Below are positions 2,981 through 29,018 of a DNA stretch of 64,000 nucleotides, piece by piece. Position numbers and translations under genes: made by a program. Under the pieces are notes generated by a model that ran no database searches, was not told the origin of the DNA, and worked only from the letters and a program-made list of their open reading frames with translations. Where the stretch lies: contig NZ_CP150203.1 in NCBI RefSeq assembly GCF_037969725.1, positions 6,811,501 through 6,875,500 on the forward strand, given 5' to 3'. Within the stretch, counting starts at the first letter, position 1. The number at the start of each line of letters is the position of its first letter. This DNA comes from Paenibacillus sp. FSL W8-0426 (GTDB lineage Bacteria > Bacillota > Bacilli > Paenibacillales > Paenibacillaceae).

Positions 2981-5900
2981 TCATTGGATGTGCTTTCTCT
3001 TTTTGTTGCCGAGTAGACAGAATCCGATGATCACCATGGACATCAGCGCCAAAATCATATAGAAGATTGGCGATACGCTGTTGTCTCCGGTTTGCGGAGC
3101 ATCGTCCAGCTCGTTATTTGCATTGCCCGCACCCTTATCGGCTAAGTCGCCGACATTACCAACTCCGTTGTCATCGTGATCAGCCACGTCGTCGATGTTG
3201 TTAGTCCCATTGTTGACGCTGCCAGGTTGGTCAGGAACAGGGCTGACAGGAACCGGATTCACCGGCTCTGGTTCAGGGTCCACAGGAACCGGATTCACCG
3301 GCTCTGGAGCAGGGTTGACAGGGCCTGGATTCACTGGCTCTGGTCCAGGGCTAACAGGACCCGGATTCACCGGCTCTGGTCCAGGGCTAACAGGGCCTGG
3401 GTTCACTGGCTCTGGTCCAGGGCTAACAGGGCCTGGATTCACTGGCTCTGGAGCAGGGTTAACAGGGCCTGGATTTACCGGATCTGGTCCAGGGTTAACA
3501 GGGCCTGGTACGCCGCCGGTGTTTATCGGCTTCATTGGCACGTCTTTTCTGACAATGTCAAAATCGACAGAAATCGTTTCACTCTTGTACGTCTCGTATC
3601 CGTCTTTCGTTACGATCAGATAGTAATCCGCTTCAGGAAACACCATGTATGCATAGAAGCCATTTGCGTCGCTATCCTGCTCCGGACTTTTGTTGTCGTG
3701 CGGCGCAAAATTCGGAACCGGAGGAAGCGTTACTTTTGTATCCGGAGTACGGCCTTTATCTCTATTCCGCTGCGTATCCGCATAGTACAGGGTAACTGTG
3801 GCTCCTTCAATTTTCTTGCCAGTGATGGCATCTCCTGTCGTTTCATCATAAACCGTACCGTAAGGGTCGACCAATGCCTCGGAAATATTCAGCTCTCCGT
3901 TAGCCTTCACGTTCAGCTTCGTCACGTTGAAGAGAAGTTCCTCGCCGGTCTCAGCTTGATAGCGAACTTCCATGGTGTACTGCTGCTCGCTTAACCCTTC
4001 CACGGAGAAGGTTCCGTTCGGATCCATCGGAAATGCCTTAGGAAGATAATTGCCGTCCTTGTCCTTCAAATAGATACGCATCTGGCTGGTAAACGAATCA
4101 TTGAATAGCTCTTTGGTTCCATCCAGCTGCTTGAACAGAACGATCCCTACCGCCGTAATGTCCGCCGGAACGGTCTCGTCCGTCACGCCGTTGTTCACGT
4201 TTCCTTTTTGGGTGAACTCGACAGGGACATCCTTCCCGCCAACGTGATACAACTTCGTATATGTGATCGTATAGTTGGTATCCGCTGCGGCCAGGACCGA
4301 ATATTCACCATTTTCGTTCGTCCAAATCGTTTGCTGTTCGTTGGTCTTCTTGTTCGTCACGATGATTTTCGCGTTCGGAATGATTTCGCCTGTGTTGTTG
4401 TCACGCAGCACGCCTTCCAGAACTGGAAGCTGACGGGTATTAACAAAGTGTGCTTCAGCCGCGCTTTTCGCCGGAATGGAGCCCGTGCGAACGAAACTTT
4501 CAGGATCCGTCACATAGCCGTCTTCCGAATAATCATCTTGGGTCACCTTGTACTCGAGATACGTTGGAAGTCCTTGCATAACGAGCGTCTGGCTATCAGT
4601 AAGCTCGAAGGTATCCCCGCTCTTAATCTTGCCCTTGGTGCCGTCCGACTTAACATAGTCGTAGGATTCGTCTGCTCCCTCGCCTGTGAAGACGACGGTG
4701 TACTTGAACACCTTCGTTTTGTCGCCGGCATTACCTTTAACCGCGTTGCTGATGAGCAGGCCGCCCTTCAAGACTCGCGTGTTCGTGAACGGGGCATCTT
4801 CATCAGTGCCTTTCATAACTCCGGTATGGTTCCGCTCCTGAGGAGTAGTTACGTACTCATCCGCTGTGTAGTCTTTCTGGGTAACCGTGTATTTCAGATT
4901 CTTCGGCAGACCCACAATTTCCAGTGTCTCTCCATCCTTGAGTGTGAAGGATTCGCCAGACTTGATCGTGCCCGGTGTACTTGTCTCGCCATCCGACTTC
5001 GTATACGCGTAGCTTCCATCCTTGCCTGCATCCTCAAAAATGACGGTGTACTCGAATTCCTTCGTTTTGTCGCCGCCATTGCCCATGACCGTATTGCTAA
5101 CGGTCAACTTGCTGACAGCCCGTTCATTCACGAAATCTGCCGTGCGATCGGCGCCCGCCATAACTCCCTTATCAGACAGCGCAGGAGTGGTCGCGTAGCC
5201 GTCGTTCTTGTAATCGTTCTGGGTAATATCATACTTCAGATTGTCGGGAAGGTCCTTAATTATAAAGGTCTCACCATGCTTGAGCTCGAAAGTGGCGCCG
5301 GATGTGACCGTGCCCGTCGTGCCGTCTGAAAGCTCGTAATTGTAAGTTTGACCCTTACCTGCACCGTCAAAGGTCACGGTGTACTTGAACGGCTTGTCCG
5401 ATTCTGCGCCGTCCCCGGTTACGGTATTGCTGACGGTCAGATTATAAACGTATCGTTTGTTGACAAAATCTGCTCTGTGATCACCTTTATTCTCGATCTT
5501 GCCTGACAACTCTCTCGTCTCCGGCTCAGTCGTATAACCGTCAACAGTCGTATAATCGGCCTCGGTTACGGTATAGACCAGACCCGCAGGCAATGTCGGA
5601 AATACAACAGATTCCCCGTTCTTGAGGATGATCTTATCTCCGCTCTTGAACTTAACAGTGCTAACTTCACCATCTGGCTTCTTAAAGGTGTACTCTCCGT
5701 CCTCGCCCTCTCCGGTGAAGTTCACGGTGTACTCGAACTCTTTGTTCGGATCGCTGCCGTTGCCTTCCACCTTATTGGTAATGGTCAGCTTGCCCTGGGC
5801 CGGCGTAGGCACGACCAGCGGACTATCAGAGGTTACTTTCACGCCGTCTACCCAGATGGGTTTCCCAGGCGTATTCCCCACATATACTTGATAAACTCTT

Positions 5901-8900
5901 GTAGTAGGCAGCCAAGTATTGGTGTCAATATAAGTTTCCTTCAGCTCATAATATCCTGGATCTGGGAATAGGAGATTAAGTTTCCCTCCGCTATCGGTTG
6001 TTCCTTTGGCGATTTGAGTTCCGGTATCCTTCTTGTAGAGCGTAAACTCTACGCCTTTTAGCGGATTGCCATTGGGATCTACCTTTTTCAGGGGCAGCAG
6101 GGCGTTGGAGCTTGAGCTGCCAGCTACGTCTGAATTGTCCAGCGTGCTTTCGCTTCTGGCACTGACAGATTTCAGATTGTCATCGCCCTCCAGTTTTACC
6201 TCGTTGCCCATTTTGTCTCCGGCTTTCGCTTTAGATGGATCAACCTCTGTTTGGTACACAAACTGGTAAAACTTGTTAGGGTTTTTCATTTTGAATTTTA
6301 GAACTGTGGTGCCTCCTGCGCCTGGTGCAGCTTCTACCTGAACTTCAGTATTCGGATCGCTAAGATCCAGGGCTGCGCCCTCCCGTTCCAGAGCACCGCT
6401 GGCAGTGAGTTTGGCAGGATAGACTGCCATACTAGGCGCTGTCAGCACAAGCTTTCCGTTTTCTTCATAACGCAGATTCATGCCTGCACCTAGGGTATCC
6501 TGCAGGTAAACGTCCTGCTTCATGTTGAATGGCGGGGTATAGTTTACCGTCCATTCGAGCACCCCTGGAACTGGCTTCGTTACCGATTTGCCCAGAGTCT
6601 GAATAGGTACAATAATCTTACGTTGTTCGGTAAGGACTTTCTCCACTCCGCCCCATGTCATATGAAGGTCGGCTTTGTTATACAGCACCTGCTTGTCTGT
6701 GCCGTTGGTCGTGTACTCGTCCAAATATTTCGCCAAAGCTTCATTCGAAGGTCTTGCTTTTACCAAAATGACATAAGGGCCTTCCAATTTAGAGAAGGTG
6801 AAGGTGCCTTCGTTGCCGCTATGGGAGAAGTTCACGACGTGAGCAGGGTCGTTCGGCTCGATGATTGAAACAGCGTTGTTTCGAAACCCATATCCGGTGC
6901 CGCTGCCATTATCCGAAAAACCTTTCCAAAGCTCAAATTCCTTCTCCTCGGAAAACGGAACGAACTCCCATCCCGCCGGCAAGGTGTCCACCAGCTTCAC
7001 ATCGGTGATGACCCGGCTTCCACCACTTTTCGCCATTTCAACCGTGTTGTAGCCCGGCATATTGACGCTTAGACGGAAGGTGACCGTCTTGGTTGTTCGG
7101 TCATAACCTGCCAAGGTGTATTCGTCGCCGCTTGATGATCCATCATAACCGATATAACGGTTAACGTTGTTCGGAGTATACCAAGTGTCGGCCGTCCCGT
7201 CCTTCTTAATAGGATAGGATGCCGTAAGCATATCCTTGTTCAGCATACGCAGATGGAGATTGGCATTGTTTTCCGCTTTTTTTACGGCTTCGCCGTCAAA
7301 TAGCAAAGCCCGATTCCAGCGTGTTTTCTCTGTGTTAATATCCTGCCTGAAGAGGATATCCGGGTTGGTTTCAAGTGCACGGAAGCTGAAGGATGCAGCT
7401 TGGTCGGTGTATCCCGTCACCTTGATCAAATCTGCCACGACTTCTCCGTTCACCGTCAAAGGAATGGCTTTCATGGTCAAGCTGCTTGCATTGGTTACAC
7501 CCTTCAAGGTTCCCGCATGATACTGCTTCCAAAGCTGAGCAGTATTGACATTTGCCTTGATTTTCGCAATCGTTTCCGCGCTAACCTCGCCGGTTGCATC
7601 CACTGCGTTATCCAAGACGTTCAAATCCCCGCCATGTACCAGCACGTCGTATACTACCGCATTTGGCAGAGCATACTGTGGCGCTAGATTGACAGTCCAT
7701 GTGATGGCGCCGAGGTTGTAATCCTCCGTCGAAACAGCTCCGCTTTTTGTAAAAGTATGCGCACCGATCGTTACGATTGCCTCGTCAGTTACCGCGACAG
7801 GTCTTAATCCAGTTGTCGCATCATTGTTCTGAATACCGCCTGGTGTGTCTAAATTCCAGTTGGCACGAGGGTCGATTCTGAAGTCGGAGCCGCTTGTTAC
7901 CTTACTCTTAATCACCAGTTCGACTTTACCATTAATATCCCCAAAGGAATAAACGCTGTTCTCATCCGGTGTAATTGGTTTTACCTCAGATGCAACGCCA
8001 TCCACCCATGTCTGCCATTCAGCTGATAAAAAGTCCAGCCCAGCAGGTAATGCATTTGTGATGGTTAAGTCCTTTAACCCTTTTTTGTTATACTGGTTAA
8101 CAGTGATTTTCCATGTGATTGTTTCATTAGGATTGTCATACGAGGCGCTGGCTTGAATCCAGTCGGGAGCAAAAACAATTTCCTGATTTCTATTCGCAAG
8201 CACAGCATTGCCATCTTTGAGCTCCACTTTGCCATTCATGTTCACAGCGCGACCAGGATCGCCCGATGGACTCCGATGCTCGTAATAGTAGCCTCCCTTT
8301 GGAATCCAGGTTTTATATTCGACCTGTGGATCTACACCCGTTCCCGGCGGGAAGACATAGCTTAGAGCGCCATTGGCATCGATGGTTGGTTCTACCACCT
8401 CATTATTTACTTTGAATGAACCTGGCACATAGATACCACTGACTCGATACGAAGATGAAGGCGAATCCATATTATAGGATGCAGGGTTCGTATAGAACGT
8501 CTTCCCATCCAACGGTAGTTTAATTGTATTATCAAACTGATCGGAAGCAGACACAGTAGACTGCCAAGTAATCGCTCCCGCTACAAAGAAATCGGGGTTA
8601 ATTATGCGATAAGCCCAAGAACTATTTCTCATTCCCGGTGAGGTCAATGTGAGATTGTATTTCGCTGTAACATCCGGGTTCTTTAGCTCATACGCTCCCC
8701 CGAAAATCGAGATAGGCTTTGTATCGCCGTATTCTATCCCATTCAAATCCGAATTGGCAGTGGTATCAAAGCCGAAGGTAACTGCTACTCCAATACCATT
8801 GAAAAACGAATCATCGCCATTAAATACAATCTTGATGCTGTCCGGAGTGAAATAGGCGGTGCCCAGCTGTTTCTGACCATAATCAGTTGTTGCCATCAAG

Positions 8901-9397
8901 GTTTTGGTAGCTGTCGGCAGCACCACTTCCTTGAAGTAGTCTTCTCTTTTCAGCTCGATTGAGTCGCCCTTCTGAATGTACTTGGTGGTGTCATTTTCAT
9001 GCTCCGTATTGGCAAAATCGCCTCTCACCGGAACCTTGAGGCCCTCAGATTTGAGAGTAAATGCCTGTCGGCCCTGAATCGTACCGCCTGGGGCAATGTC
9101 AGTTCCCTGCGTCACCTTCAGCGGAAAGGTTGAATTAGCTTCCATAAACACCGCTGTTTTGTCCGTCGGAACTGCCGCCATCGCTACGAAATTGTTCGGC
9201 GCATCATACACTGCCTCAGGTACTGACAGCGGTTCCTCCGCGCTCGGCGAGGCAGATTCACTGACTGCTTCCGTTCCGGAATCGTTTGGCACACTCTCCG
9301 CATATGCGCCAGCAGAGAACATCACTGTCTGCAAGACAAGCAAGATTGCCATAAATAAAGACAGCAACGGTTTACCTATACTGCGTTTTTGTTTCAA
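2981..9397 (-). CDS. Giant cell-wall-anchored adhesin with tandem pilin-like domains
   Basis: About 2,138 residues. Residues 1-34 are a signal peptide (KQKRS basic start, long hydrophobic core, AYA cleavage site). Residues 90-1,100 are all-beta adhesin-type segments with repeated ITWTVN/LEWTVN strands. Residues 1,105-1,190 are a SpaA/CnaB-like domain with Lys in LPLKKVD and Glu in YELKET, a pattern that can form an isopeptide bond. Residues 1,200-1,655 are four tandem domains of about 113 residues, each opening (K/L)LT(I/V)(T/S)N and closing (D/H/T)FVN(K/E/T)R. Two carboxypeptidase-regulatory-like beta domains, a Pro-rich repeat stalk, an APQTGDNS sorting signal, a membrane helix and a KKRK tail follow. 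I chose TTG at 9397: AGGAGG sits eight bases before it, while the ATG at 9415 lies upstream of that site. It is co-transcribed with the class B sortase. The ligand is unknown. Confidence 0.9.
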   Translation of the reverse strand: MKQKRSIGKPLLSLFMAILLVLQTVMFSAGAYAESVPNDSGTEAVSESASPSAEEPLSVPEAVYDAPNNFVAMAAVPTDKTAVFMEANSTFPLKVTQGTDIAPGGTIQGRQAFTLKSEGLKVPVRGDFANTEHENDTTKYIQKGDSIELKREDYFKEVVLPTATKTLMATTDYGQKQLGTAYFTPDSIKIVFNGDDSFFNGIGVAVTFGFDTTANSDLNGIEYGDTKPISIFGGAYELKNPDVTAKYNLTLTSPGMRNSSWAYRIINPDFFVAGAITWQSTVSASDQFDNTIKLPLDGKTFYTNPASYNMDSPSSSYRVSGIYVPGSFKVNNEVVEPTIDANGALSYVFPPGTGVDPQVEYKTWIPKGGYYYEHRSPSGDPGRAVNMNGKVELKDGNAVLANRNQEIVFAPDWIQASASYDNPNETITWKITVNQYNKKGLKDLTITNALPAGLDFLSAEWQTWVDGVASEVKPITPDENSVYSFGDINGKVELVIKSKVTSGSDFRIDPRANWNLDTPGGIQNNDATTGLRPVAVTDEAIVTIGAHTFTKSGAVSTEDYNLGAITWTVNLAPQYALPNAVVYDVLVHGGDLNVLDNAVDATGEVSAETIAKIKANVNTAQLWKQYHAGTLKGVTNASSLTMKAIPLTVNGEVVADLIKVTGYTDQAASFSFRALETNPDILFRQDINTEKTRWNRALLFDGEAVKKAENNANLHLRMLNKDMLTASYPIKKDGTADTWYTPNNVNRYIGYDGSSSGDEYTLAGYDRTTKTVTFRLSVNMPGYNTVEMAKSGGSRVITDVKLVDTLPAGWEFVPFSEEKEFELWKGFSDNGSGTGYGFRNNAVSIIEPNDPAHVVNFSHSGNEGTFTFSKLEGPYVILVKARPSNEALAKYLDEYTTNGTDKQVLYNKADLHMTWGGVEKVLTEQRKIIVPIQTLGKSVTKPVPGVLEWTVNYTPPFNMKQDVYLQDTLGAGMNLRYEENGKLVLTAPSMAVYPAKLTASGALEREGAALDLSDPNTEVQVEAAPGAGGTTVLKFKMKNPNKFYQFVYQTEVDPSKAKAGDKMGNEVKLEGDDNLKSVSARSESTLDNSDVAGSSSSNALLPLKKVDPNGNPLKGVEFTLYKKDTGTQIAKGTTDSGGKLNLLFPDPGYYELKETYIDTNTWLPTTRVYQVYVGNTPGKPIWVDGVKVTSDSPLVVPTPAQGKLTITNKVEGNGSDPNKEFEYTVNFTGEGEDGEYTFKKPDGEVSTVKFKSGDKIILKNGESVVFPTLPAGLVYTVTEADYTTVDGYTTEPETRELSGKIENKGDHRADFVNKRYVYNLTVSNTVTGDGAESDKPFKYTVTFDGAGKGQTYNYELSDGTTGTVTSGATFELKHGETFIIKDLPDNLKYDITQNDYKNDGYATTPALSDKGVMAGADRTADFVNERAVSKLTVSNTVMGNGGDKTKEFEYTVIFEDAGKDGSYAYTKSDGETSTPGTIKSGESFTLKDGETLEIVGLPKNLKYTVTQKDYTADEYVTTPQERNHTGVMKGTDEDAPFTNTRVLKGGLLISNAVKGNAGDKTKVFKYTVVFTGEGADESYDYVKSDGTKGKIKSGDTFELTDSQTLVMQGLPTYLEYKVTQDDYSEDGYVTDPESFVRTGSIPAKSAAEAHFVNTRQLPVLEGVLRDNNTGEIIPNAKIIVTNKKTNEQQTIWTNENGEYSVLAAADTNYTITYTKLYHVGGKDVPVEFTQKGNVNNGVTDETVPADITAVGIVLFKQLDGTKELFNDSFTSQMRIYLKDKDGNYLPKAFPMDPNGTFSVEGLSEQQYTMEVRYQAETGEELLFNVTKLNVKANGELNISEALVDPYGTVYDETTGDAITGKKIEGATVTLYYADTQRNRDKGRTPDTKVTLPPVPNFAPHDNKSPEQDSDANGFYAYMVFPEADYYLIVTKDGYETYKSETISVDFDIVRKDVPMKPINTGGVPGPVNPGPDPVNPGPVNPAPEPVNPGPVSPGPEPVNPGPVSPGPEPVNPGPVSPGPEPVNPGPVNPAPEPVNPVPVDPEPEPVNPVPVSPVPDQPGSVNNGTNNIDDVADHDDNGVGNVGDLADKGAGNANNELDDAPQTGDNSVSPIFYMILALMSMVIIGFCLLGNKKRKHIQ
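3238..3508 (-). repeat. 36-bp tandem repeats encoding a Pro-rich stalk
   Basis: About seven imperfect copies of a 36-base unit encode PVSPGPEPVNPG-type 12-mers just before the sorting signal. Unit variants include PVNPAPEPVNPG and PVDPEPEPVNPV. Such stalks hold wall proteins away from the surface and often vary in copy number between strains. Confidence 0.85.
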
Positions 9398-10117
9398 TAC
9401 CGAAACCTCCTCCATTCCCTAAATCTCTGGAATACTTTGGTGACAACAAGATCATCTACACGATATAACGGCTAACACAAATAAATATATGCTGTTTGCC
9501 TAGGTCCAGCGCCCCTTTCCATCGTCGAAATCCCGAGGAGTTCGGATGAATGCCGGGGTGTGTAGGCCGTTGACCTTGCCTTAGTACTTTCTTCCCCCTT
9601 TCTTTCGACTCTTCGCCACGTACATACTGTAGTGGCAAAATACGCCCAATTTACAAAGCGTGCCCTTCTATTATATGAAGGAGGACCTATACAAAAAATA
9701 GACAATGCTCGACAATAAAGCGTAAAATTCGGTGTCCAACCTCATAATCGGATCAGATCCGATCAACAACCAAGGGCAAAACGAGAAAAAAGCCCTAAAT
9801 CCTGTCTATTCCCAGTCGTTCTATGCTCTTTATAGGCACAAAGAAACATTCAAAAACGGTATTAAGGGCCTATAAAATTTTCGCAAAAACGAACAGAAAG
9901 ATAGGAATTATGGAGCCGTTCCATTATTTCATTCCGGGATTTACACGCTTAATGAATTTAAAGAGATGGAGGCATTCAAACTACAGTCCTCGGCTAAACG
10001 TTGTGGAGTTACGAAAGTGGAAAAAGCCCTCTAAATGTGGTCAAGCTTTTTAATCAAACTTTGTATAGTGTAAACGTTGCAATGTGTACAGTGTACGATC
10101 CCAACCTTGGGCATATA
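9398..10117. other. Long intergenic region upstream of the adhesin
   Basis: 720 bp with no gene I can support; the small open frames at 9456-9705 and 9823-10053 lack plausible start signals. It must contain the adhesin promoter. A weak candidate on the minus strand is TTGTCG near 9715 with GTATAG about 17 bases on, but this is not convincing. Confidence 0.4.
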
Positions 10118-24486: not shown

Positions 24487-24947
24487 GCCTATACCTGCAC
24501 CCCTCCAGCATCAATTTAATCAAATTCTGTCATCGGATATCATTACTATGAAATATTATATATCATCCTCATCCAATCTTACATATTAAAGTATAATATA
24601 CAAAGTCTTCCTCAACCTTCGGTACGGTTCTCCGTGCTGTCCAATCTCCCTCTCGGAATGGAATTCCTCCAGAATCATTTTCGATACCTGCCGGCTTAAC
24701 GGGGTGTCGGCGAACCGCTTAAGTCGAGAAGCATTCTCCAAAGCATGTCGCGTAAAGGGAATGGTTACTACAATACCAAACGGTTGAAGGCAAAAATAAA
24801 AATGAGCCCGGTACAGTACCGAACTCATTTTGAGAAAGCTGCCTGATGAAATCACCGCGTCTAACTTTTGGGGGGCACTTCAATCATATGGCTTTTTCTT
24901 TTTCAGCGACTTGGCCCAATCGTATATCAAAATTCCTACATTTAGAA
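24487..24947. other. Intergenic region with one terminator
   Basis: Apart from the terminator at 24798-24831 I see nothing convincing. A minus-strand open frame at 24586-24855 runs through that terminator and lacks a ribosome binding site. Confidence 0.45.
24798..24831 (-). terminator. Terminator of the exported-protein/sigma-factor locus
   Basis: AAAATGAG and CTCATTTT enclose a second GGTAC/GTACC stem. On the minus strand it is followed by TTTTTATTTTTG. It lies about 117 bases after the last gene of the locus. Confidence 0.75.
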
Positions 24948-26021
24948 TTAGTTGTTTAATAATTTTGGTTGCTCATTTGCAGGCCCTACGATCGTGTTTC
25001 CGCCGAAACTGAGATGCTGACCATACTTCTCTACGATAAAGCTGTTAAACGATCCATCTGCATTCATTGTGGCAATGACTGTGGGAGCCCCTTTTTTGGT
25101 GAACGTCATTTGATCCTTGTCCCATGCATTTGTTCCTCTTGCTCCCTTATATCCTTTCAAATCCAGATTTAGCATCGTTTTTGCGTCTTTCACTGCATTC
25201 TTCATTAATGTATCCAACGTCAGATTCTTGATCTTTGCATCTTTTGCTTTTTCATCCTTTTGGAATTCTTCGTAATTATCTATGCTTTTACCATTACTAT
25301 GATGTACGCCGGCTTGGAGCAGTTCCAGCGTTTGTTCTTCAATGGCAAAGCTCACATTCATCGTTTTTGATTTATACTTATATTGATACACATTCGGTTT
25401 GCCATCGAGGACAAACACACGATCCAACTTTTCTCCTTTCTTGACCTTACCATTGGTAAGCTTGGATAATACCTGAGCAGCCTTCTTCTGCACGCTTGCC
25501 GGGGCATCGTCAGGTGCATAATTTACGCCATGCAGCTCTCCGTTGTCTTCCATATAAACTTGTTTATTTTGTTTGGCATTCGATGAGATGGTACCCACAT
25601 AGTAAGTTGACTCTGAGATATCCACATACTTTGGTGTTTCCCCTGGGAACAATGCTTCCCACGTTTCCTTCAGTTTGGTTTGATATTTCCCACCGTTTAA
25701 CTCTTCATAATTGATTTTAATACTGATATTTTCGAGCTTTCCATTCTTTTTATAAGAAATCGTATCATATTTGAAATTCTCTCTTTTAAAATTCACAAAA
25801 TCTTTCATGGCTGTTCCCTGAACTAACTTATAGGTATTTCCTGTTAGCTCTTTCAGTTTATCCTGAGCCTGCTGCATAAGCTTTTGATCCACCTTAACAT
25901 CCTGTGAAGCATTGATATTTACCTTGTTAGGCGAATCTGCCTGAACAGGTGTTTGGCACCCCAGCAAACTTCCTGATAATAAGGCTACTCCGAGTAAAGG
26001 GAAAATTTTCTTTTTGTTCAT
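24948..26021 (-). CDS. Lipoprotein resembling the anti-sigma-factor ectodomain
   Basis: 357 residues. The N-terminus is a lipoprotein signal with a clear lipobox (LSGSLLGCQT, lipidated Cys at about 22). The rest is a folded extracellular domain of no named family that I recognise. It aligns along its length with the ectodomain of the membrane protein at 27290-28351: LKETWEALFPGE matches LQKVWNEIFPQG, PNVYQYKYKSKTMNVSFAI matches PVYKFVYHTHEGSILIDV, and KDAKTMLNLDLKGY...MTFTKKGAPTVIA matches KQAKAWMNLDLADY...LTFTKEGSPDVTA. A close paralogue lies directly upstream. ATG at 26021 with AAAGGAG upstream. Probably a secreted antagonist, co-sensor or product of the sigma regulon; inferred. Confidence 0.8.
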   Translation of the reverse strand: MNKKKIFPLLGVALLSGSLLGCQTPVQADSPNKVNINASQDVKVDQKLMQQAQDKLKELTGNTYKLVQGTAMKDFVNFKRENFKYDTISYKKNGKLENISIKINYEELNGGKYQTKLKETWEALFPGETPKYVDISESTYYVGTISSNAKQNKQVYMEDNGELHGVNYAPDDAPASVQKKAAQVLSKLTNGKVKKGEKLDRVFVLDGKPNVYQYKYKSKTMNVSFAIEEQTLELLQAGVHHSNGKSIDNYEEFQKDEKAKDAKIKNLTLDTLMKNAVKDAKTMLNLDLKGYKGARGTNAWDKDQMTFTKKGAPTVIATMNADGSFNSFIVEKYGQHLSFGGNTIVGPANEQPKLLNN

Positions 26022-26100
26022 ATCAATGAACTCCTTTCTTTTACTACCTCATGGTTATACTGAAATATAAGTGCATCTCCAAGCCGCTTTTCAATACATA

Positions 26101-27174
26101 TCAGTCAATTAACAATTTGAGTTCTTCATTTGGAGGACCTGCGATAGTCATTCCGTAAAAATCGATTTCCTGATTATACTTATCAATGGTAAAGCTGCTA
26201 AACGATCCGTCTTTATTAAATCTGGCAGTAACTGAAGGCGCCCCTTCTTTGGTGAACGTCATATAATCTTCATCCCATGCATCTGCACTTCTTTCTCCCT
26301 TATATCCTTTCAAATCCAGATCCAACATCGTTTTTGCGTCTTTCATTGCGTTCTTCATTAAAGTGTCCAATGTCAACTTCTTCATCTCTGTACTCTTTTC
26401 TTTTTCTCGTTCCTGGAATTCTTCATAACTATCTACACCTTTACCATCAGTATGGTGTACATCGACTTGGAGCAGTTCCAGCGTTTGTTCTTCAATGGCA
26501 AAGCTCACATTCATCGTTTTTGATTTATACTTATATTGATACACATTCGGTTTGCCATCGAGGACATACATACGATCCAACTTGGCCCCCTGCTCGACAT
26601 TTCCATCGGTAAGCTTGGAGAATACCTGATCAGCCTTCTTCTGCACGCTTGCCGGGGCATTGTCAGGAGCATAATTTACGCCATAAACATCGCCATTCTC
26701 TTGCATATAAATTTGCTTGTTTTGCATAGCATTCGATGAGATTGTACCCTCATAGTAGATTGACTCTGAGATATTCACATATTTCGGTTCTTCCCCTGGG
26801 AACAAAGCTTTCCACGTTTCCTTCAGTTTGGTTTGATATTTTCCACCGTTTAAATCTTCATAATTGATTTTAATACTGAACGTTTCGAGCTTTCCATTCA
26901 TGTTATAAGCAATAATATCGTCTTTGAAGTTCTCTCTTTTAAATTGGATAGCATCTTTCGTAGCCGTTCCTTGAATTAACGTATACGTATTTCCTGTCAA
27001 TTCTTTAAGTTTATCCTGAGCCTTTTGCATAGGGGTTTGCTCTGATTTAGCACCTTGTTCGATGTTTGAATTTACGTTGTTATATGCATTTGATTGATTC
27101 GACGTATCAAATCCAAGCAAACTCCCTGATAATAAGGCTGCTCCGATGATAGGAAAAATTATTTTTTTGTTCAT
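26101..27174 (-). CDS. Paralogue of the exported protein, lipobox Cys replaced
   Basis: 357 residues, the same length and most of the same sequence as the neighbour at 24948-26021 (long identical runs around QNKQ(V/I)YM, APDDAPASVQKKA and PNVYQYKYKSKTMNV). The signal region is nearly identical, but LLGC has become LLGFDTS, so no lipobox Cys remains. The protein is therefore either released after ordinary signal-peptide cleavage or kept as an N-terminal membrane anchor. ATG at 27174 with AAAGGAG upstream. The two genes are 79 bp apart and clearly arose by tandem duplication. Confidence 0.8.
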   Translation of the reverse strand: MNKKIIFPIIGAALLSGSLLGFDTSNQSNAYNNVNSNIEQGAKSEQTPMQKAQDKLKELTGNTYTLIQGTATKDAIQFKRENFKDDIIAYNMNGKLETFSIKINYEDLNGGKYQTKLKETWKALFPGEEPKYVNISESIYYEGTISSNAMQNKQIYMQENGDVYGVNYAPDNAPASVQKKADQVFSKLTDGNVEQGAKLDRMYVLDGKPNVYQYKYKSKTMNVSFAIEEQTLELLQVDVHHTDGKGVDSYEEFQEREKEKSTEMKKLTLDTLMKNAMKDAKTMLDLDLKGYKGERSADAWDEDYMTFTKEGAPSVTARFNKDGSFSSFTIDKYNQEIDFYGMTIAGPPNEELKLLID

Positions 27175-27289
27175 ATGAATAAACTCCTTTATTTTTTATT
27201 TACTTACACACAGTTTTTAATGGAACTCTTCAGCCACGTTGAAATAAATCTATGAAATCAGCAGTCACCACCCCCTCTCATTGCATTGA

Positions 27290-28351
27290 TTAGTCCGTTC
27301 CTTTTTCAGATAACTGCTTTAGCTCAATTTTAATTGAATAGATCGTTCCTTTAGAGGTGAATAGCGCAGTCACGTCTGGAGAACCCTCTTTTGTGAACGT
27401 TAATGTGTCAAACCGTGATTCAAGTTTGGATACGTTATAATCAGCCAAGTCCAAATTCATCCATGCTTTAGCCTGTTTCACGGTTTCCTCATGAATCATG
27501 TCCAGCTCAATTGCTTTTGTTTTCTCAACTAAATCATGATATTTATTTTTATCGTCCAATTGATTAAGTTGATCCGACAGCGGAAAAGCTACAATCCTTG
27601 TGATCTGATTCGTATTTTTTTGTACATCAATGAGGATCGAACCCTCGTGTGTATGATACACGAACTTATACACCGGATTCTGATCAGGTCTTAAGACCAT
27701 TTGACTTACTGACCGTTCAATTTCTTTAAAATCCCCAACTTTATGAAAAGCTTGGTCCGCTGCATCTTTTGCAGCATCTGGAACCTGCTCCTCTCCAATC
27801 GTTTGCTGCGCATAATACCATTTACCTTGGTCAAATTCGATGGATCTGTTTTCGTTTCGCGCCTCTATGTGAAATGTGTCCGGTTTATATTCGTACATAA
27901 CCACATCATTAATTCCTTCTCCTTGGGGAAAAATCTCATTCCATACCTTTTGCAGCTGACTTTTAAACTCTTGATCCTCAATGTCATCAAAGCGAATCAT
28001 CCCCGAATGAAATTTCTTATTCCCATCCGAGCCTTGTACATAAATTGTATCGGCCTTCTCATTTGGATTTACTTTCATTTCTTTGGCGAACGGATTAATA
28101 TATTCAAGCAAGGATAGCCGCTCTATGGCTTGAGCCATGACAGGAGTTAGAGACACACAAAAAGCAACCAATGCCGCTGCGATAACTCCCACTCTTCTTG
28201 TGAAGATCGGTTTTTGTGGTGGCACGCTTTTGGATTCAAGTTTTTCGACAATCTGTTGACTCATGCTGTGCTCTGGCGTCTCCGTATCCCGAATCATTTG
28301 CTCCACCTGGTGAATACTAACGGTTTTAGATGGATTTGGTGATCGACGCAT
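27290..28351 (-). CDS. Membrane anti-sigma factor with extracellular sensor domain
   Basis: 353 residues. Residues 1-52 are a short cytoplasmic part with helix-forming sequence (SIHQVEQMIRDTETPEHSMSQQIVEKLES), the place where an anti-sigma factor would hold its sigma. Residues 54-73 are one membrane helix (VGVIAAALVAFCVSLTPVMA). Residues 80-353 are an ectodomain like the two following exported proteins. No zinc-binding ZAS motif (HxxxCxxC) is present. The gene overlaps the ECF sigma gene by 26 bp, the usual arrangement for a cognate pair. ATG at 28351 with AGGAGG eight bases upstream. Anti-sigma function is inferred from position and topology. Confidence 0.8.
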   Translation of the reverse strand: MRRSPNPSKTVSIHQVEQMIRDTETPEHSMSQQIVEKLESKSVPPQKPIFTRRVGVIAAALVAFCVSLTPVMAQAIERLSLLEYINPFAKEMKVNPNEKADTIYVQGSDGNKKFHSGMIRFDDIEDQEFKSQLQKVWNEIFPQGEGINDVVMYEYKPDTFHIEARNENRSIEFDQGKWYYAQQTIGEEQVPDAAKDAADQAFHKVGDFKEIERSVSQMVLRPDQNPVYKFVYHTHEGSILIDVQKNTNQITRIVAFPLSDQLNQLDDKNKYHDLVEKTKAIELDMIHEETVKQAKAWMNLDLADYNVSKLESRFDTLTFTKEGSPDVTALFTSKGTIYSIKIELKQLSEKGTD

Positions 28352-28913
28352 TCACTGTTCCTCCTTCACTAACTTCCTTCGTCTGCAGTTTTTTGCGAAG
28401 GCGTTCATACTTTTTGCGCACGGTTGCCGGCTTCATATTCATGATTTCACTAATCTCGTTAAAGTGATATCGATGAATCGCCCGGAGAACTAATATATGT
28501 CTCTCTTCGGTAGTCAGTAAATTTAGAAGATCCTTCAGTGTCGTTTGACTGTCTATTTGCTGAGTCGAGGTTTCAGGCTGATCATATTTATAACGATCGA
28601 TAAAACGAAACCACCTTTTTCTGCTCCTGATTTGATTCAGACTGTAGTTGTAGGCAATTTTGTACAGCCATGCCGAGAAAGTCATATTTGGACGATACTT
28701 ATGTATCTGTTCATACACTCTGATAAATATTTCTTGTAGAGCATCCTCGACTTCTTCTTTGTTTTTGAGCATATGGTAACAATAGATATACATTGGTTTT
28801 TCAAAGATTTTAATAATAGAAGCGAAAGCTTCCTTATCCCCAAGTTTAGTCCTTTCGACCAGCATCTCAATTTCTTCTGGGTTTGATTCATACTCTCTGT
28901 AGTCTCTATCCAA
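28326..28913 (-). CDS. ECF-type RNA polymerase sigma factor
   Basis: 195 residues. Region 2 spans about 17-90 (KEAFASIIKIFEKPMYIYCYHMLKNKEEVEDALQEIFIRVYEQIHKYRPNMTFSAWLYKIAYNYSLNQIRSRKR), with the DALQE and FSAWLYKIA hallmarks. Region 4 spans about 120-180 (LLNLLTTEERHILVLRAIHRYHFNEISEIMNMKPATVRKKYERLRKKL). I take the TTG at 28913, eight bases after AGGAGGGGG; the ATG inside that spacer is in another frame and closes after four codons. Closest in style to SigW/SigX-like ECFs. It heads a locus with an overlapping anti-sigma gene and two paralogous exported proteins. No typical ECF AAC/CGT promoter is obvious upstream. Confidence 0.9.
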   Translation of the reverse strand: MDRDYREYESNPEEIEMLVERTKLGDKEAFASIIKIFEKPMYIYCYHMLKNKEEVEDALQEIFIRVYEQIHKYRPNMTFSAWLYKIAYNYSLNQIRSRKRWFRFIDRYKYDQPETSTQQIDSQTTLKDLLNLLTTEERHILVLRAIHRYHFNEISEIMNMKPATVRKKYERLRKKLQTKEVSEGGTVNASITKSI

Positions 28914-29018
28914 AAGTCATACCCCCTCCTGCCTACACTCTTAAAACACCAATGCAGCTCATTTTGTGACAGCAGCATCAAAAATAATACTTGGTAACAT
29001 CATCAAGGCAAGTTTTAG

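Follow-up and report, generated by a model that had tools for sequence, protein, structure and literature searches.

Exported relatives of the anti-sigma sensor domain in an ECF sigma factor operon of Paenibacillus

Why would a sigma factor locus whose anti-sigma factor already carries an exported sensor domain also encode free exported proteins that resemble this domain? The question is raised by a locus of Paenibacillus sp. FSL W8-0426, located in a stretch of 64,000 nucleotides (the window, G000:C1:6811501-6875500) of the 6.9 Mb genome. Four open reading frames (ORFs), all confirmed on the minus strand, encode in the order of transcription an extracytoplasmic function (ECF) sigma factor, a membrane-bound anti-sigma factor and two exported proteins, B and A. 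The tentative answer, which we regard as plausible but somewhat short of probable, is that the locus forms a self-activating ECF operon whose main output would be free copies of its own sensor domain, buffering a ligand shared with the sensor.

The sigma gene (28326..28913, 195 aa, TTG start) encodes a short protein with sigma-70 regions 2 and 4 (Pfam Sigma70_r2, PF04542, 6.4e-15; Sigma70_r4_2, PF08281, 3.3e-09), and is by these features an ECF sigma factor. As the first-pass annotation of the window had reported, it overlaps the anti-sigma gene (27290..28351, 353 aa) by 26 bp (28326-28351); the overlap is retained in orthologous loci. The anti-sigma factor, a predicted sigma binder 99% identical to that of Paenibacillus sp. 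JJ-223, has about 50 cytoplasmic residues, a single hydrophobic transmembrane (TM) segment at about residues 49-72 and about 278 residues behind it, in line with the one helix and 270-residue ectodomain given earlier. Its exported sensor domain comprises residues 76-353 (27293..28126). Protein B (26101..27174, 357 aa) has a signal sequence with LLGF, which is not a lipobox; protein A (24948..26021, 357 aa) has a lipoprotein signal with the lipobox LLGC already noted in the first pass (residues 19-22, 25956..25967).

Both exported proteins align with the anti-sigma ectodomain, as had been claimed from their translations. Single BLASTP comparisons over most of its length gave 23% identity for A (50.1 bits, 3e-11) and 24% for B (54.3 bits, 1e-12). 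With the ectodomain alone as query the scores were 53.5 bits for A and 62.0 bits for B, against a top shuffled score of 29.3 (4000 shuffles, 500 of them reported by BLAST). In profile-profile comparison (hhalign) the anti-sigma sensors match the free proteins of locus types I-III with 99.9% probability (E 1.8e-36, 242 columns), and the free proteins of other locus types with E 5.5e-31; types I-VIII are working labels of this analysis. The sequence blocks listed in the first pass are all present in A, B and the anti-sigma factor: W(E/K/N)(A/E)(L/I)FP, xVYxxxY, NLDL or DLDL, and FTK(K/E)G(A/S)P. The second of them needed a small correction: A and B have PNVYQYKY there, the anti-sigma factor NPVYKFVY. 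Identity between sensor and free proteins is 17-27%, and a 20-row alignment contains five invariant residues common to both. Judged by these alignments, the sensor belongs to the same domain family as the free proteins.

The family is not readily named. Pfam and NCBIfam scans of the anti-sigma factor, A and B returned nothing significant, nor did a search of Protein Data Bank (PDB) sequences with protein A (best E 0.092). The AlphaFold2 model of B (pLDDT 75.6, pTM 0.70) has the YpeB C-terminal domain as its nearest PDB fold, in a comparison where the absence of a fold from the list carries no weight; the domain of A, B and the sensor is provisionally modelled as tandem PepSY/YpeB-like units. 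The curated PepSY cut-off was not reached, with best E values of 0.032 in three of 20 members and 0.19 in one of 42 members, and P0022, an orthologue named PepSY by UniRef, has no PepSY match in its own Pfam scan. The ectodomain of the anti-sigma factor RsiV carries DUF4163/DUF3298. These domains were not matched in the window proteins (Pfam, E up to 10) and do not occur among the families listed for the 20 members (25 of 36) or the 42 members (25 of 27); the free orthologue P0065 is labelled DUF3298 by UniRef, but its own Pfam scan lacks such a match.

A different family touches the TM-proximal half of the anti-sigma factors. DUF4179 is reached below the cut-off, and in that half only, by the orthologue P0014 (E 0.13), type II (0.0036, 0.009) and type III (4e-5, 1.8e-4). 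The type III matches cover DUF4179 positions 3-49 and 6-48, that is, the TM helix and the segment behind it; type II matches are weaker and type I hardly matches or does not match at all. The type I-III anti-sigma factor may thus be pictured as a DUF4179-like stub joined to the domain of the exported protein.

The co-occurrence survey proposed in the first pass reveals a conserved unit. Homologue searches gave 38 and 44 homologues, with gene order checked for a minority. Among close orthologues (type I), the exported paralogues are linked to the sigma gene throughout: sigma factor, anti-sigma factor and at least one free copy occur together in 16 of 16 genomes (G010 being read as L005, at the same coordinates). 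Two free copies lie behind the anti-sigma gene in 15 genomes and one copy in the other (L090). The division into one LLGC and one LG(F/Y) copy holds for 14 of the 15 two-copy loci, both copies having Y in L087, and the flanks of type I loci, by ORF sizes, differ between many of them. In type II (L040, L042, L044; identity 62-63% for the sigma and 36-37% for the anti-sigma factor) the unit with two free copies is present in 3 of 3 loci, and type III (L099, L101) has sigma factor, anti-sigma factor and one free copy in both intact loci. In types II, III and IV the free gene follows the anti-sigma gene at a distance of 18-32 bp.

Several observations surround these loci. L096 (G264) is a type III locus in decay, its sigma and free genes being truncated. 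In L055 (G015) part of a type I free gene survives, 87% identical to A, with no sigma gene within the 6 kb fetched. A third free relative lies 3.7 kb upstream of the sigma gene in a type I locus of G053 (L041:3295-4350). The genome under study has a stand-alone free relative of 285 aa at 3.70 Mb (L003:1495-2352), beside a cupredoxin-domain gene; the stretch fetched around it contains no sigma gene. S-layer genes (Big_12 + SLH; 5'-nucleotidase + SLH) occur upstream of one type I locus (L012:429-5213). An NCBI contig of 6.7 kb that is assigned to Clostridioides difficile, perhaps through contamination, also encodes type I locus proteins (P0004, P0039). Among open-access titles on Paenibacillus ECF sigma and anti-sigma factors, none concerns this locus.

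A putative autoregulatory ECF promoter, TGTCAC-N15-GGTGTTTTA, lies on the minus strand at 28942..28971; 28 bases separate it from the start codon of the sigma gene. All 14 type I loci that were aligned have the motif TGTCAC-N15-GGTGTNNTA conserved ahead of the sigma gene, and it is also present in types II and III. In two scans of its own genome this site was the only match (G000:C1:6840442-6840471), the reversed control giving 0 and 1 matches. Across 16 genomes, TGTCACN{14,16}GGTGTNNTA has 27 matches and the reversed pattern four. Upstream of type I-III sigma genes there are 21 of the 27, and three more at the second unit of type II loci; one stands just before a stand-alone free gene in G053 (L167, motif start 53 bases before the ORF), and the remaining two before an S-layer gene (L166:3624, G043) and inside an ORF of G221. 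The S-layer gene preceded by the match in G043 is the first of the S-layer genes mentioned above. Because the pattern was derived from the sites themselves, the scans show the rarity of exact copies elsewhere and not the full regulon. A relaxed scan of the fetched domain-matching genes matched L167 only, and the stand-alone free gene of the genome under study lacks the motif.

Transcription from the sigma promoter probably continues through the two free genes, because the stretch between the anti-sigma gene and B (27175..27289, minus strand) contains neither a TGTCAC promoter nor a terminator-like site. This stretch is partly conserved, mostly missing in L093 and L095, and without an Rfam match, as is the locus as a whole; no TGTCAC-type promoter was found directly upstream of B in type I loci. 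No terminator-like site was called between the four genes, and two weak overlapping ones were called inside the anti-sigma gene. The next such site on the minus strand past A is a 15-pair hairpin at 24831-24799. It is contained in a segment directly downstream of A (24586-24885, minus strand) that looks, by eye, like the remnant of an IS3-type element. Elsewhere in the window, the longest entry of the ORF list has 2144 codons (2981-9415, minus strand).

Type II loci carry a second, partly decayed unit between their two intact free genes. In all three genomes the second sigma and anti-sigma copies have decayed (L040:5448-6218, L042:7788-8514, L044:6995-7764), while the promoter motif and the free gene behind it are intact; the duplicated unit probably arose in one ancestral event. 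Retention of promoter and free gene in a unit that lost its sigma and anti-sigma genes points to the exported proteins as the output. An ungapped comparison of 34 bases upstream of sigma and free genes stayed at shuffle level for most pairs, L118 being above the shuffle maximum and L112 and one L107 gene equal to it. By a two-box score over six other locus types, the sequence ahead of a free gene tends to resemble that ahead of its neighbouring sigma gene: pairs from the same locus reached a mean of 12.2 of 14 and cross-type pairs 10.5 (maximum 13); the observed sum was reached by 4, 1 and 12 of 720 permutations in three representative sets, counts that are post hoc, as the score was devised after inspection of the sequences.

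Linkage to sigma genes extends beyond types I-III. Searched with a 20-member profile, the family set yielded matches in 106 of 394 genomes at E 1e-3, and a sample of Bacilli in 26 of 398 genomes at 1e-6; the profile was built partly from sigma-linked members and at most five candidates per genome were scored, which makes these counts lower bounds that lean to close kin. The fetched family loci contain 92 free genes of at least 250 aa, after removal by hand of an anti-sigma gene (L096_5548) and a broken long anti-sigma gene (L113_4892). Of those with E <1e-40, 46 of 57 have an ECF-type sigma gene no more than 3 kb away. By our own estimate, about 5-9% of genome positions are that close to a sigma gene (the test used 7%; six genomes have 51 to 77 PF08281 matches each). 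When free genes are clustered, at least half of the members are sigma-linked in 11 of 20 clusters at 40% identity and in 13 of 34 at 60%.

These linked genes have anti-sigma neighbours of more than one kind. The free genes of L104, L109, L050, L108, L047, L112, L131, L155 and L157 adjoin anti-sigma factors matching DUF4179 and DUF5643 over the cut-offs (DUF5643 just below in L109), and the anti-sigma factors of L106 and L107 match neither family over the cut-offs. The open-access literature yielded nothing on DUF5643. An unfiltered search for the domain gave no match below E 0.5 in the anti-sigma factors of L104, L110, L050, L051, L108, L107, L106 and L047, and listed none for those of L109, L112 and L103; at 1e-3 there is no match in those of L131, L155 and L157. 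Two further classes do carry the domain. The anti-sigma factors of a long class (L115, L117, L118, L137; about 850-873 aa) have it at the C-terminus. DUF4179 was found in that of L115 and, under the cut-off, in that of L118. Three of the four loci also encode a free protein on its own (full-length in L117, 160 aa in L115, 248 aa in L118, none in L137). The g8 class, from genus g8, comprises anti-sigma factors of about 400 aa with a related C-terminus, in L123, L124, L128, L133, L140, L142, L143, L145, L146, L149, L154, L156, L160 and L164. In L124 the gene is followed by one for a sulfatase-family protein (PF00884), and ORFs of similar size follow in most other g8 loci. In the f23/f12 set, no matching ORF was seen in L198.

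The history of the domain was traced in a tree of 92 rows, obtained from 175 domain matches (including L005-L013) by filtering to 131 and removing near-copies of at least 88% identity. The ectodomains of type I-III anti-sigma factors group together with support 100, in a clade that lies within the free exported proteins, and the type I-III free proteins group with a support of 83 only. Anti-sigma rows fall into three groups with four label changes, one of which is the broken long protein L113. Forcing all anti-sigma rows into one clade was rejected by the approximately unbiased (AU) test (p 0.0047), as was joining types I-III with the long class (p 0.0127, a hypothesis named after the tree was seen). 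On these alignments the tests show at least two captures of the domain by anti-sigma factors, within the limits set by long branches and a midpoint root. A count of three or four captures would be too firm: joining the long and g8 classes was not rejected (AU p 0.588, the constrained tree being even slightly better), and two are supported by test. In a second tree, with eight distant free rows left out and six rows added, L179 is placed nearest to free proteins (44% identity to L052) with weak support, and is perhaps a further capture.

The direction of transfer differs from the one proposed in the first pass, where the ectodomain was taken to have been copied twice. Since the ectodomain clade is nested among free proteins and free relatives also adjoin anti-sigma factors lacking the domain, capture of a free protein by the anti-sigma factor appears the more parsimonious direction; descent of the exported copies from the anti-sigma factor is less parsimonious by this midpoint-rooted tree. 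Proteins A and B, 71% identical, are by this comparison a later duplication of one free gene. Related bacteria have fitted the domain to the anti-sigma factors of such stress-response switches on more than one occasion, which suggests a common cell-surface signal for the sensor and the exported proteins.

In the mechanism that we propose for types I-III, the anti-sigma factor would hold the sigma factor at the membrane until its PepSY-like sensor binds an envelope ligand, either a protein or a wall product. The segment behind the TM helix would then be exposed to signal peptidase at a V-M-A site directly behind the helix (residues 71-73, 28133..28141, minus strand), a candidate site-1 motif. 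Ligand-triggered cleavage is predicted here because of this P-V-M-A motif and the known switch of RsiV, in which, according to excerpts of PMC6066255, amphipathic helices after the TM segment protect the site, signal peptidase cuts upon lysozyme binding and DUF4179 holds the switch. Among 28 type I-III anti-sigma factors, many of them close kin, P70 and A73 are invariant and V71 and M72 at least 90% conserved. A site-2 protease would free the sigma factor, which would transcribe its own operon; the free copies, anchored and soluble, would build up and capture that ligand too, thereby neutralising or buffering it, and with less free ligand reaching the sensor the response would switch itself off. 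The operon part of this mechanism is well supported. The sharing of a ligand is a guess, and titration by the free copies, an idea of the first-pass annotation, remains the best one at hand. The feedback is weaker still, because LbpA, an exported RsiV relative of C. difficile, is reported to have no role in regulating SigV (excerpts of PMC9044953), which speaks against feedback there.

A broader version extends the buffering model to other Bacilli. Anti-sigma factors in more than one lineage would have captured the operon's own exported tandem PepSY-like protein as sensor, the cell would gauge the ligand left unoccupied by anchored and secreted copies, and the exported family would be a general output and partner module of ECF systems. 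We regard this homeostat of one domain as on the doubtful side.

Together with the LbpA report, a number of points weigh against the buffering model. Its ligand, binding, cleavage and expression are all predictions, and the window anti-sigma factor has no Pfam match to DUF4179. The promoter is predicted as a motif, and its rarity elsewhere is the sole independent part of that prediction. In the two-box comparison 47.5% of 80 cross-type pairs score at least 11; for L047 and L107, the pairs from the same locus score no higher than their cross-type ones. Distant relatives are mostly unlinked: only 5 of the 35 weaker free genes (E not <1e-40) lie within 3 kb of a sigma gene, and in the f23/f12 loci 3 of 18 free genes adjoin one (L185, L188 and a fragment in L187). 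Conversely, the domain-bearing anti-sigma factor of L179 has no adjacent free copy, and all 14 g8 loci lack a free neighbour in the fetched stretch. The anti-sigma factors of types IV to VIII lack the domain by these searches, so ligand sharing with the sensor cannot be a general rule.

The free genes beside anti-sigma factors with a different, DUF4179-DUF5643 ectodomain invite another explanation, the main rival to the scavenging of ligand. The free protein may be a ligand-carrying partner whose bound form touches the anti-sigma ectodomain and triggers site-1 cleavage, and which became fused into the anti-sigma factor in some lineages. The long class fits such a history: its anti-sigma factors end in the domain, which follows DUF4179 in L115 and, under the cut-off, in L118, and three of four loci have a free gene besides, of full length in L117 only. 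Gene fusion often marks physical partners. A parallel exists in the separate protein PbpP, which is required for cleavage of RsiP. In types I-III, however, a separate sensor would be superfluous next to the built-in one, yet these loci retain one or two free copies, and the type II free gene kept behind its own promoter after decay of the sigma and anti-sigma genes looks more like an output than a sensor. We consider the partner role rather unlikely.

The low identity between sensor and free proteins would also agree with a reuse of the fold. The free proteins would then serve as effectors that protect the envelope or modulate enzymes, and the anti-sigma factor would merely have borrowed a domain whose ligand is no longer common to both. 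SleB and penicillin-binding proteins are among the varied envelope partners of PepSY proteins (excerpts of PMC10653890), and PepSY-associated membrane proteins depend on ECF sigma factors in Neisseria (SigE, PMC3240639) and P. syringae (PMC3597554), with no sensor role described in the excerpts. The five invariant residues common to sensor and free proteins argue otherwise, though they may be the fold core only, and more than one capture is easier to explain if the domain brings its ligand along; on balance this reading appears unlikely. A purely accidental neighbourhood, with ordinary exported paralogues that happen to adjoin a sigma gene, finds some room in the many distant free relatives away from sigma genes, but is highly improbable given the linkage of the 46 close free genes over the estimated expectation, the sigma-linked clusters and the promoter data.

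The first-pass annotation knew of no characterised system of this design, and two partial precedents exist: LbpA of C. difficile and RsgI6/Xyn10D of C. thermocellum, in each of which an exported protein related to the anti-sigma ectodomain is controlled by the cognate sigma factor, as far as the published excerpts go. LbpA is encoded in the csfV operon and is an RsiV relative without the sigma-binding domain; it is membrane-bound, binds lysozyme as RsiV does, and confers some resistance (excerpts of PMC9044953). The free proteins described here are likewise exported relatives of the ectodomain, encoded in the sigma operon and without a sigma-binding domain. Unlike the csfV system, the domain is predicted to be PepSY-like and is without Pfam matches to the RsiV ectodomain domains, which does not place the locus in the RsiV/LbpA family by sequence, and the loci usually have two free copies, one with a lipobox and one without. 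The ectodomain of RsgI6 is 57% identical to Xyn10D, whose promoter is activated by SigI6 in B. subtilis (excerpts of PMC4711584). There, too, an anti-sigma ectodomain is homologous to an exported product; that system differs in its SigI-type sigma factor, its carbohydrate-binding sensor of glycoside hydrolase family 10 (GH10) and an exported relative that is an enzyme with its own promoter. The DUF4179-type anti-sigma factors RsiV and B. anthracis BAS1627 share with the window protein a short cytoplasmic part, one TM helix and a signal-peptidase-like site right behind it, at which cleavage is predicted here. They differ in that the window protein has a predicted tandem PepSY-like domain behind the TM segment and is itself below Pfam detection of DUF4179. 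The tandem PepSY proteins YpeB, TseB and CopD are not described as anti-sigma sensors in the excerpts of PMC10653890, and the window proteins lack a curated PepSY match.

The locus suggests a testable design rule, by which an anti-sigma factor can sense with a membrane-tethered version of a protein that its own system exports. Repeated acquisition of the domain, together with free genes beside several kinds of ECF sigma factor, means that the ligand and any feedback can be sought in several lineages. An unnamed family of exported proteins gains a likely regulator, and the TM-proximal part of DUF4179-type anti-sigma factors may be able to join new sensors.

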